DNA of 64,000 bases, taken from assembly GCF_016863295.1 (NCBI RefSeq), contig NZ_BOOP01000043.1:1-64000 (forward strand), in the 5' to 3' direction. A program made the translations under genes and the position numbers. The stretch comes from Planotetraspora phitsanulokensis (GTDB lineage: Bacteria; Actinomycetota; Actinomycetes; Streptosporangiales; Streptosporangiaceae). Under the pieces are notes generated by a model. It was not told the origin of the DNA, did not search any database, and was given only the letters and a program-made list of their open reading frames with translations. This document shows, piece after piece, positions 15,205 to 19,599 of this stretch; the stretch's first letter is position 1, and the number at the start of each line of letters is the position of its first letter.

Positions 15205-16110
15205 ATGACCGTTCTCGTCACCGGAGCCACCGGGACCGTGGGCGCCCACGTCGTCCGTCATCTGCTGCGGGCGGGCAGAAAGGTACGGGCGCTGACCCGC
15301 GACCCCGCCTCCGCCCACCTGCCGGAGGGCGTGGAGGTGATCGCCGGCGACCTCACCGACGCAACCACGCTGGCGCCGGCCTTCGACGGCGTCACCGCCG
15401 CCCATCTGATCAATTTCGGCAGGGGATACCGGCCCCTGAGAAACGGGCAGGAGATCGTCGACCTCGCGCTGCGGGCCGGAGTGCGCGCCGTCACCGTCCT
15501 CGGCGGCTGGGAGACGGGCAGCCTGGAGCCTGCCGTACAGGCCGGCGACCTGAGATGGACCCTCCTGCGGCCGGTGGAGTTCATGGCCAACACGCTGGCC
15601 GACTGGGGCGAGTCGCTGCGGACCACCGGCGTCGTCCGCGAGCCGTACGGCGACAGGAAGAGCCCCCCGATCCACGAGTCCGACATCGGTGCGGTAGCGG
15701 CGGCCGTGCTCACCCAGGACGGCCACGCGGGGCAGGCCTACCACCTCACCGGGCCGGAGGTGGTGACTCCCCGCGACAAGGTCCGCATGCTCGCCGAGGC
15801 GACCGGCCGTGACCTGCGATTCGAGGAGCTCACGCCCGGCCGGACGCGGCAGGAGTGGGTCACCGAGGGCGGCCGGCCGGAACGGCTCCTCTTCCGGGCG
15901 TTCCCTCCCGGACTGGGTGACGCGGAGCTCGTGGAGATGCTCCTGCGGCTGTACGGCACGCCCAACGAACTCGGCACCACCGTCACCGACGCCGTGGAGA
16001 AGGTCACCGGCCGGCCGGCGCGCACGTTCGCCGAGTGGGCGGCCGAGCACGCGGGCGCGTTCCGGCCCGGATCCGCGGAACGACCGGAAGCAGATCGGAA
16101 GGTCTCATGA
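15205..16110 (+). CDS. NmrA-family NAD(P)-binding protein
   Basis: 301 residues. The N-terminal VLVTGATGTVGAHVVRHLL is a Rossmann motif of the atypical SDR/NmrA group. There is no classical YxxxK active site, but LLRPVEFMANTLADW is typical for the NmrA/HSCARG-like subgroup (about residue 118). This class includes quinone oxidoreductases and NADP(H) redox sensors. ECF41 sigma factors are commonly linked to oxidoreductase or epimerase genes of this kind. The stop overlaps the next start (ATGA), indicating translational coupling. Confidence 0.88.
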   Translation: MTVLVTGATGTVGAHVVRHLLRAGRKVRALTRDPASAHLPEGVEVIAGDLTDATTLAPAFDGVTAAHLINFGRGYRPLRNGQEIVDLALRAGVRAVTVLGGWETGSLEPAVQAGDLRWTLLRPVEFMANTLADWGESLRTTGVVREPYGDRKSPPIHESDIGAVAAAVLTQDGHAGQAYHLTGPEVVTPRDKVRMLAEATGRDLRFEELTPGRTRQEWVTEGGRPERLLFRAFPPGLGDAELVEMLLRLYGTPNELGTTVTDAVEKVTGRPARTFAEWAAEHAGAFRPGSAERPEADRKVS

Positions 16111-16694
16111 GCACCTCATCGAAGCCCGTCCCCGGAAGGGCGCACCGCTACGCGCCGGGTGACCTGGTCGCCCCCCGCGAGCTGACGTCGATCCGGGCGG
16201 AGCGGGTCCTCCTGCCCGACCCCGGGTCCCTCGTCCACCTGCAGTTCCGGCGCTACGCCGGATGCCCCATCTGCAACGTCCACCTGCGGTCCGTGGCCCG
16301 GCGCCACGACGAGATCGCCGCCGCGGGGATCCGGGAGATCGCGGTGTTCCACTCTCCCGCGGAGGACATGCTGTCCCACCAGGGCGAGCTCCCCTTCGCC
16401 GCCGTCGCGGACCCGGACAGGAAGCTCTACGCCGAGTTCGGCGTGGAGGCGTCCCCCCGGGCCGTGCTGCATCCGCGGGCCTGGACGGCCCCGCTGAGGC
16501 CGGGGACCTACTCCGTCGTCATCCGGGGCATACGCGCCGGGGGGACGCCGTTCTCGACCGGGGGCCAGACCGTCCTCGGCCTGCCGGCGGACTTCCTCAT
16601 CGCCCCTGACGGAAGGGTGCTGGCCGCCAAGTACGGCAGGCACGCGGGTGACCAGTGGTCGGTCGACGAACTGCTGCGCCTGTCCGGGCGGTGA
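16107..16694 (+). CDS. Peroxiredoxin-like thioredoxin-fold protein
   Basis: 195 residues. A thioredoxin fold of the AhpC/TSA PRX-like group with C53 and C56 in RRYAGCPICNVHLRSV, then AVFHSPAEDM and FAAVADPDRKLYAEFGV. It ends with DFLIAPDGRVLAAKYGRHA. The CPIC pair suggests a thiol peroxidase or thiol-disulfide role. It is the third gene of the ECF41-linked operon with a 4-bp overlap, consistent with a response to oxidative or electrophile stress. Confidence 0.88.
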   Translation: MSTSSKPVPGRAHRYAPGDLVAPRELTSIRAERVLLPDPGSLVHLQFRRYAGCPICNVHLRSVARRHDEIAAAGIREIAVFHSPAEDMLSHQGELPFAAVADPDRKLYAEFGVEASPRAVLHPRAWTAPLRPGTYSVVIRGIRAGGTPFSTGGQTVLGLPADFLIAPDGRVLAAKYGRHAGDQWSVDELLRLSGR

Positions 16695-18307: not shown

Positions 18308-18703
18308 TCAGGTCGCGGCGGCCTCGCGGTCGTGGCGCTCACGAGCGGCCCGGATGTCGTCGCGGTGGGCGTTGGCCCATTCGTCCAGCGCGGTGAGCGG
18401 GCCCAGCAGCGTCCGGCCGAGCTCGGTGAGCTCGTAGTCGACGCGCGGCGGCACGCTCGCGTGCACCGTCCGGCTGACCAGCCCGTCGCGGGCGAGCGCG
18501 CGCAGGGTGTGCGTCAGCATGCGCTGGCTGATGCCCTCGATGGCGCGGTTCAGCTCGCTGAAGCGGTGCGTGCGCCGCCCGAGCAGCACCACGATGAGCA
18601 CGCTCCACTTGTCGCCGACCCGGTCAAGGACGTCACGGATGGGGCAGTCGTCCGTCAGCTGGATGGTGGCGGGCACAGGCACATCCGTGTGCGTGACCGA
18701 CAT
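18308..18703 (-). CDS. HxlR-family transcriptional regulator
   Basis: 131 residues from ATG 18703 with an excellent AAGGAGG site. A winged-helix HxlR domain: CPIRDVLDRVGDKWSVLIVV, HRFSELNRAIEGISQRMLTH, LRALARDGLVSRTVHASVPP and VDYELTELGRTL. The conserved N-terminal cysteine (DDCPI) is the redox or electrophile sensor in several HxlR proteins. It is divergent from the small peptide and FrnE genes, with an ATTGTG/CACAAT dyad in between, so it probably represses them. Confidence 0.93.
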   Translation of the reverse strand: MSVTHTDVPVPATIQLTDDCPIRDVLDRVGDKWSVLIVVLLGRRTHRFSELNRAIEGISQRMLTHTLRALARDGLVSRTVHASVPPRVDYELTELGRTLLGPLTALDEWANAHRDDIRAARERHDREAAAT

Positions 18704-18729: not shown

Positions 18730-18759
18730 ATTGTGACTCATGATGGTGTTACACACAAT
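18730..18759. promoter_or_regulatory. Candidate HxlR operator dyad
   Basis: ATTGTG (18730-18735) and CACAAT (18754-18759) form an inverted repeat with half-sites 24 bp apart, about two helical turns. It sits between the divergent HxlR and peptide/FrnE genes and is A/T-rich against the background. It fits a dimeric winged-helix regulator; binding is inferred. Confidence 0.5.
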
Positions 18760-18778
18760 AAGTAACCAGGAGGGCTCG

Positions 18779-18934
18779 ATGAGCGCATCCGCGTCACCCG
18801 AGGCTCCGGCGCCGGACGCCGTGACCGCGGAGACCACCCCTGAGGCGCCGTCGATCAGGCGGCCGGTCGCGCAGGGGCTGGTGGTGCTCGGCGCCGAGGG
18901 CGCCGAGGCGTGCTCGGACGGGACCTGCTGGTGA
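18779..18934 (+). CDS. 51-residue peptide ending CSDGTCW, unknown
   Basis: ATG 18779 follows a very good AGGAGG at 5 nt. The peptide starts MSASASPEAPAPDAVTAE, is acidic and Ala/Pro-rich for about 30 residues, then has RRPVAQGLVVLGAEGAEA and a C-terminal CSDGTCW with two cysteines. It is not recognised as a known family. The stop TGA overlaps a downstream GTG, and the FrnE-like gene starts 14 bp after it, so the two genes are probably translated together. It could be a thiol substrate or partner of FrnE, a leader peptide, or a precursor peptide. No maturation enzyme is nearby. Confidence 0.6.
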   Translation: MSASASPEAPAPDAVTAETTPEAPSIRRPVAQGLVVLGAEGAEACSDGTCW

Positions 18935-18948
18935 GCGAGGAGAAGTCT

Positions 18949-19599
18949 GTGCGGGTCGAAGTGTGGTCCGATGTCGTGTGCCCGTGGTGCTACATCGGCA
19001 AGCGGCGGCTGGAGCGGGCGCTCGAGGGGTTCGAGCACGCCGGCGAGGTCGAGGTGGAGTGGCGCAGTTTCCAGCTTGATCCGACGCATCCCAAGGGCGT
19101 CAGGCAGCCGGTCTACGAGGCCCTGGCCCAGAAGATGGGCGGCTCGACGGCGCAGATCCGCGCGATGACCGACCGGGTGAAGGCGCTGGCGGCGGAGGAG
19201 GGGCTCGAGTACGACTTCGAGCACTCCATCTCGGTCAACACGTTCGACGCTCACCGCCTGACCCACCTCGCCAAGGCGCACGGCCTGGGCGGGGAGACGC
19301 ACGAGCGGCTCATGCGGGCCCAGCTCATCGAGGGCGAGACGCTCGACGACGTCGACACGCTCGTCCGGCTGGGCGCCGAGGTCGGCGTCCCCGCCGACGA
19401 GGCGCGACGGGTGCTCGAAGGGGACGACTACACCCGTGAGGTCGAGGAGGACATCCGCGAGGCCCAGATGCTCGGCGCGACCGGAGTACCGTTCTTCGTG
19501 CTCAACCGCATGTACGGCGTCTCGGGCGCGCAGCCGGTCGAGCTGTTCCTGTCCGCGCTCCGCACGGCCTACGAGAACGAGGACGCCCCGGCCCGCTGA
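18949..19599 (+). CDS. FrnE-like DsbA-family oxidoreductase
   Basis: 216 residues from GTG 18949, chosen because GAGGAG sits 6 nt upstream and FrnE proteins start close to VEVWSDVVCPWCYIG. The thioredoxin-fold CPWC active site is at residues 11-14. The alpha-helical insert and the cis-Pro segment GATGVPFFVLN are present. There is no signal peptide, so it acts in the cytoplasm as a disulfide oxidoreductase or isomerase, as for Deinococcus FrnE, which is linked to oxidative stress tolerance. It is co-transcribed with the Cys-ended peptide and divergent from HxlR. Confidence 0.92.
   Translation: MRVEVWSDVVCPWCYIGKRRLERALEGFEHAGEVEVEWRSFQLDPTHPKGVRQPVYEALAQKMGGSTAQIRAMTDRVKALAAEEGLEYDFEHSISVNTFDAHRLTHLAKAHGLGGETHERLMRAQLIEGETLDDVDTLVRLGAEVGVPADEARRVLEGDDYTREVEEDIREAQMLGATGVPFFVLNRMYGVSGAQPVELFLSALRTAYENEDAPAR

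Follow-up and report, generated by a model that had tools for sequence, protein, structure and literature searches.

What does a 51-residue peptide ending in a pair of cysteines do when it is encoded immediately ahead of a disulfide oxidoreductase? The question arises from a stretch of 64,000 nucleotides of the Planotetraspora phitsanulokensis genome (9.17 Mb, 95 contigs), hereafter the window, in which a small open reading frame (ORF) lies between a gene for a FrnE-like CPWC oxidoreductase and a divergent gene for an HxlR-type regulator (Table 1). The original prediction, made from the letters of the DNA, joined these genes in a redox circuit in which the peptide might be a FrnE substrate, a thiol carrier or a sensor partner. 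Our comparison of FrnE loci makes it probable that the peptide works in trans as the detached form of the CX4C tail found at the C-terminus of FrnE-type cytoplasmic disulfide oxidoreductases. The peptide is conserved, selected at the protein level and linked to FrnE; it has a motif in common with fused FrnE tails, and the tail occurs in detached form in two parts of the FrnE tree.

A small gene ahead of a tail-less FrnE

The arrangement of the peptide, HxlR and FrnE genes is that of a short peptide–FrnE operon with a divergent regulator. As predicted, the small gene has a good ribosome site, its product is acidic (seven acidic and two basic residues) with a C-terminal cysteine pair, and its stop lies 14 nt before the start of a gene with a clear DSBA match (Table 1); GAGGAG is found inside this gap. 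An alternative in-frame FrnE start, GTG 18931, overlaps the peptide stop, and ATG occupies the position equivalent to the 18949 start in two relatives examined. The peptide is a separate ORF with its own stop, in a reading frame that differs from that of FrnE, and is not a covalent part of the enzyme. On the same strand, approximately 2 kb upstream, an AhpC/TSA-type redox protein is encoded at 16035-16694.

Table 1. Features of the peptide–FrnE locus (positions in the window)
Feature	Position	Strand	Details
HxlR/DUF24-type regulator, divergent	18308..18703	-	131 aa; single cysteine, Cys20; Pfam HxlR E 1e-27
Putative HxlR operator GTTAC-N9-GTAAC	18748..18766	.	Overlaps CACAAT (possible -10 element); just before the peptide ribosome site
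Shine-Dalgarno AGGAGG of the peptide gene	18768..18773	+	Read from the sequence; 5 nt before ATG
Peptide gene (proposed stand-alone CX4C tail)	18779..18934	+	ATG 18779; stop TGA 18932-18934; 51 aa; Cys45 and Cys50; C-terminus GLVVLGAEGAEACSDGTCW
Tail-less FrnE (DsbA-family, CPWC)	18949..19599	+	Start GTG 18949; Pfam DSBA E 1.6e-40

The FrnE protein of the window has both marks of the subfamily, a DSBA thioredoxin-fold domain and a CP(W/F)C motif near the N-terminus, and its closest relatives in the PDB are FrnE of Deinococcus radiodurans (drFrnE, 5cnw; E 2.8e-57) and SCO1869 (3gl5; E 1.6e-51). It has two cysteines, both in the CPWC active site. The C-terminal CX4C tail that many, not all, FrnE proteins possess is absent, and the protein ends in AYENEDAPAR, without a cysteine.

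By comparative sequence evidence, the small ORF is a real, conserved gene whose tail is under purifying selection. The peptide sits upstream of FrnE in all five same-genus genomes examined, one copy of which had been missed by a single-sequence peptide search; a search of genome contigs with the peptide alone gave, among the matches listed, one relative, Planotetraspora silvatica, and neither Pfam nor NCBIfam holds a family for the peptide. GC3 is higher than GC2 in the ORF of the window (one-sided p 0.0026), as it is in a pool of 47 peptides, which are related sequences (p 3e-88). Across 42 family tails, namely those of the 47 that fit a fixed-spacing expression, mean pN was 0.23 versus a pS of 0.42, and pN was lower than pS in 792 of 861 pairs, the pairs being non-independent. 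The expression presets L1, G5 and both cysteines, so that conservation at these positions comes from the selection of tails; Ala9, which is not preset, is invariant (42/42) although four codons are used for it, and 40 of the 42 tails retain Asp14 and Gly15.

The link to FrnE was also seen in a search of 338 family genomes with a profile of 35 peptide tails, all of them from the searched family. Among the best candidates (at most 25 per genome), 47 matched at E <=1e-3; 46 lay within 200 nt, directly upstream of a FrnE gene, and the remaining match was a FrnE's own fused tail, so no other place in these family genomes matched.

Likeness to fused FrnE tails and two detached forms

The original prediction held that the peptide family was not recognised, which no longer stands: fused FrnE tails resemble it, including those of drFrnE and SCO1869, whose structures are solved. 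The peptide consensus ends in GLVxLGxxDAPxCxDGxC, and the consensus of fused tails in relatives is ARPxLTTxGxDAxACxDDxCAVP. The peptide carries the C-x4-C pair in an L-x3-G-x2/3-A-x2-C context, and at some loci it extends as CADGVCTVP or CVDGSCAIP, resembling fused tails. The drFrnE tail aligned as LTMLGQDAPAEGCEDGQCAVPQ, with the same CxDGxC as the CSDGTC of the window, and the SCO1869 tail as AEACGPDGCAVPG. A FrnE paralogue in the window genome itself (G000:C4:136074-136700, L034; 37% identity) has a fused C-x4-C, CTPDGC, and ends in ...ADGICTPDGCTVPDHA (...GICTPDGCTVP).

This likeness was measured with an HMM built solely from 32 fused tails and run against 6331 six-frame segments, taken from the 115 family loci that have no fused C-x4-C tail. 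Once the frames of FrnE itself were excluded, all of the top 20 matches were upstream peptides, as were 39 of the top 47; masking of the cysteines left 14 in the top 20 and 18 in the top 47. Column-permuted HMMs (30) placed 0-2 upstream peptides in the top 20, and 30 permuted HMMs in which the two Cys columns were held fixed placed 0-3. When 35 peptide tails were aligned to 24 fused tails with hhalign, a two-profile comparison and not a database search, the probability was 96% (E 4.4e-9). The shared segment is short, approximately 20 residues, which leaves some room for convergence, and the Cys-masked signal is weaker.

To place the peptide among FrnE genes, we assembled all 147 family matches at E <=1e-50, from 341 genomes, and 80 of 101 non-family matches at E <=1e-52, from 394 class genomes; L094 (C-terminus in an assembly gap), L241 (truncated by the end of its contig) and five duplicates of family loci were left out, and the total was 225 loci. 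An upstream peptide, called by the tail motif, was present at 62 loci (47 of 146 in the family and 15 of 79 elsewhere, with 14 in one further family and one in a third), a downstream tail ORF at 5, a fused C-x4-6-C pair at 73 and neither at 85; L199 was scored as upstream and L257 as downstream from reading their frames. The search for small ORFs with a C-terminal cysteine pair upstream of frnE homologues, suggested with the original prediction, thus found the peptide at 62 of the 225 loci, and in syntenic loci the Cys-pair peptide and its coupling to FrnE are conserved. No locus was scored with both a fused and a separate tail, a result weaker than it appears because the upstream-peptide loci partly share one history; in an independent-pairs test of exclusivity, pairs that differed in the second trait were too few.

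A looser test, which accepted any frame within 120 nt upstream that ended in a cysteine pair, was positive for 56 of the 62 upstream-peptide loci, 6 of 73 fused-tail loci, 4 of 85 loci with neither form and none of the 5 downstream loci. In seven fused-tail loci that were matches of this test or of a wider scan, or close kin of such loci (L112, L117, L121, L124, L132, L138 and L150), the upstream Cys-pair frames were read, and neither a shared frame nor the tail motif was found. At another fused-tail locus, L271, a match to an upstream search expression was a Cys-rich frame without the tail motif, and a peptide call at L076 by a loose expression was rejected as a chance occurrence in G+C-rich DNA.

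The same seven fused-tail loci have a conserved GGAAT-N18-GTT-like stretch approximately 80-110 nt before FrnE, which looks like a promoter. We take it to resemble the consensus of sigma-R (disulfide stress) promoters; if so, these fused-tail FrnE genes would belong to a thiol-stress regulon.

In FrnE trees calculated with the tail removed, every upstream-peptide locus fell in one clade, which also contained some loci with neither form and none with a fused or downstream tail. Support for this clade was 80 (22 neither-form loci) and 90 (21 such loci) in two FastTree runs. In a quick IQ-TREE run on 99 rows, the clade (31 peptide and 11 neither-form loci) had an SH-aLRT support of 93. Because all of the upstream peptides fall in one clade together with some neither-form loci, the upstream detachment probably happened once and was then lost several times.

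The 85 neither-form loci, 21-22 of which lie inside the peptide clade, show that the tail is dispensable for many FrnE proteins and not needed by every one. Candidate docking positions were sought in FrnE, with kinship ignored, but no residue tracked cleanly with tail possession. We also searched 22 genomes (17 neither-form and 5 peptide-bearing) with the A1 profile. Strong matches were confined to the peptides already known in G001 and G013; in the 17 neither-form genomes, one weak match lay within a frame of 551 aa (G476, E 0.0045) and two others had E values near 0.09. Since this profile overlooked the peptides known from G559, G558 and G460, a lack of matches to it does not prove absence.

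Several single loci showed further variation. Two genomes have two peptide–FrnE pairs each (L069/L072 in G232 and L070/L074 in G046). At L094 (G181), the upstream region is like the L091 peptide gene with a broken frame and resembles a decayed tail peptide. In the neither-form loci L076 and L095, one frame 60-73 nt beyond the end of FrnE contains a PCDDxxCGP-like stretch, which may be chance.

A different gene order emerged when 396 phylum genomes were searched with the peptide profile: among the best candidates (at most 22 per genome), there was, apart from the upstream peptide of the window, one genome with a tail ORF directly downstream of FrnE, beginning inside the GTGA that terminates the FrnE gene. 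This layout recurs in three genus mates (ATGA) and in one more distantly related genome (GTGA), giving five downstream loci (L252-L255 and L257) with a stop–start overlap. In the tree they lie within a seven-row clade (support 99) whose two other members have neither form, and the next relatives include four fused-tail FrnE proteins (12-row clade, support 98). We interpret the downstream form as a second detachment of the same tail, in another part of the FrnE tree; it looks like simple fission with a stop–start overlap. The upstream gene order cannot result from simple fission and may instead have arisen by tandem duplication of frnE, followed by the loss of most of copy 1 and of the tail of copy 2.

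These data bear on a cis-acting explanation, in which the ORF would be a cysteine-responsive leader whose Cys codons stall ribosomes at low cysteine and so set frnE translation by coupling. The Cys codons do fall close to the stop of a short ORF that immediately precedes a coupled gene, and mycobacteria have Cys-rich regulatory short ORFs, according to work cited in PMC9094748. However, the peptide has two Cys codons with four residues between them rather than a run, its Shine-Dalgarno sequence is good, which tends to argue against a leaderless start such as marks the polycysteine attenuators, and the retention of Ala9 through four codons, together with that of Asp14 and Gly15, indicates selection on the protein. 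Moreover, the Cys-masked profile still detects the peptide, and the motif also occurs fused to FrnE and in the downstream ORF, where upstream attenuation of frnE is impossible. We therefore regard a leader as quite improbable.

The divergent HxlR regulator and a putative operator

HxlR/DUF24 regulators are involved in thiol sensing. The regulator of the window is divergent and has a conserved N-terminal cysteine, in agreement with the prediction: an ortholog (at least 68% identity) lies divergently beside 21 of the 62 upstream-peptide loci, including four of the five in the same genus, and Cys20 is kept in all 21. No HxlR neighbour was found in the flanks, of approximately 1 kb as a rule, of the other 41 peptide loci, one of them same-genus, the count being based on a set of 204 loci. 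The window HxlR scored below the cut-offs of the NCBIfam redox models RrpB (77.6 bits versus 175) and RrpA (55.2 versus 185). More distant HxlR genes (40-49%) were observed near FrnE without the peptide at 5 of 78 neither-form and 3 of 64 fused-tail loci (L118, L137, L152, L165, L167, L169, L175 and L179), and the HxlR–FrnE pairing may be older than the peptide.

The ATTGTG/CACAAT dyad described in the original prediction exists at 18730-18759, but its ATTGTG arm is confined to four same-genus loci among the 21 syntenic ones; what is conserved instead is GTTAC-N9-GTAAC around CACAA, in the form GTTAC[A/G]CACAA[T/G/C]AAGTAAC or close to it. The arms of this operator-like element matched at 7-10 of 10 positions in all 21 HxlR loci, whereas shuffles mostly matched at 6-7, and at least 8 positions matched in 20 of 21 loci versus 56 of 1050 shuffles, with a motif derived from the very sequences that were then scored. 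Where the one-cysteine HxlR is present, it might repress the peptide–FrnE pair through this putative site and release the pair under thiol or electrophile stress.

Could the peptide then be a redox co-sensor of the regulator? The divergent Cys20 HxlR and the shared operator-like element at 21 of the 62 peptide loci would fit such a role, but the other 41 peptide loci have no HxlR neighbour in their flanks and the peptide matches FrnE tails, leaving a co-sensor very improbable. Of the predicted roles, that of sensor partner is not favoured, an HxlR neighbour having been found in the flanks of just 21 of 62 peptide loci, whereas that of thiol carrier or FrnE partner fits in the narrower form of a CX4C regeneration tail.

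A proposed regeneration tail in trans and its known relatives

How might a detached tail serve FrnE? We propose that the reduced Cys45/Cys50 pair would enter the active-site groove of FrnE, where Cys50 would attack the first cysteine of CPWC, on the model of the Cys244-Cys22 bond of drFrnE. Through this mixed disulfide the oxidised CPWC would be reduced and the active site regenerated, and the oxidised peptide would depart with the oxidising equivalents, after which thioredoxin or mycothiol enzymes of the cell would recharge it; in this role it would be a dithiol relay. With its own gene and ribosome site, the peptide could exceed the enzyme in amount and diffuse. Such detachment is plausible, given that in drFrnE crystals the tail works between molecules while still part of the protein; the sections on drFrnE in the review PMC8945050 describe that this tail (CEDGQC) reaches the active site of another molecule, and they report a proposed role for it in regeneration.

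The same contact allows another reading, in which the peptide would be a FrnE substrate, inhibitor or cap that fills the groove and blocks or buffers the enzyme without recharging it. A peptide bound at the active site as the drFrnE tail is (PMC8945050, same sections) could inhibit, and the retained cysteine pair would permit a reversible disulfide latch. In drFrnE, however, mutation of the tail cysteines or deletion of the tail lowered the NADPH/TrxR-driven activity, as given in that part of the review (PMC8945050), and we consider a cap unlikely.

If the regeneration tail in trans is correct, it provides a function for an unannotated small-protein family and explains how these tail-less FrnE proteins could be regenerated, a question posed in the review PMC8945050 with regard to other FrnE proteins that have no tail. 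Natural versions of one enzyme with a fused tail, an upstream-detached tail, a downstream-detached tail or no tail make the working of the redox tail directly testable, and a detached tail can serve as an added reagent at variable dose. The case would also exemplify a catalytic tail turned into a separate gene more than once. More tentatively, and with somewhat less than even confidence, we suggest that the FrnE tail, freed on more than one occasion (upstream in a single large actinomycete clade and downstream in another), gave rise to a family of free-standing redox micropeptides. These would be disordered, diffusible dithiol shuttles that lack a thioredoxin fold and transfer electrons between FrnE and the thioredoxin or mycothiol system; further thiol targets might be served as well.

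The FrnE enzyme and its fused tail were known already, and the detached, separately encoded tail is new; a search of open-licence literature gave no paper that describes a FrnE tail as a peptide of its own. Two known systems share parts of the layout. In the grecocycline cluster, the FrnE-like DSBA oxidoreductase GreD stands beside the HxlR regulator GreR2 in the gene table of PMC4943663; unlike the window locus, this is an antibiotic gene cluster, and the available text of that paper describes no tail peptide. The mycobacterial polycysteine attenuators (Canestrari 2020, as cited in PMC9094748) are likewise short ORFs with Cys codons upstream of a coupled gene, but the window peptide has no Cys run, has a Shine-Dalgarno sequence and a conserved sequence, and carries a motif that also occurs fused or downstream.

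The remaining relatives are FrnE enzymes themselves. Those of Streptomyces roseofulvus and D. maricopensis, like the window FrnE, are without a C-terminal CX4C, and a different regeneration has been suggested for them in the corresponding passage of PMC8945050. SCO1869 (3gl5) and other actinomycete FrnE proteins with CGPDGC tails belong to the same enzyme family and have the CX4C tail, as in AEACGPDGCAVPG, but in a fused state. A further parallel is drFrnE (DR_0659; PDB 5cnw and relatives), a DsbA-family CPWC enzyme homologous to the window FrnE, whose tail C-E-D-G-Q-C, in the context LTMLGQDAPAEGC, resembles the LVVLGAEGAEAC-S-D-G-T-C of the peptide and works between molecules (review PMC8945050, drFrnE sections); whereas the CX4C tail of drFrnE is its own C-terminus, that of the window is a separate upstream product with a variable acidic N-terminal part.
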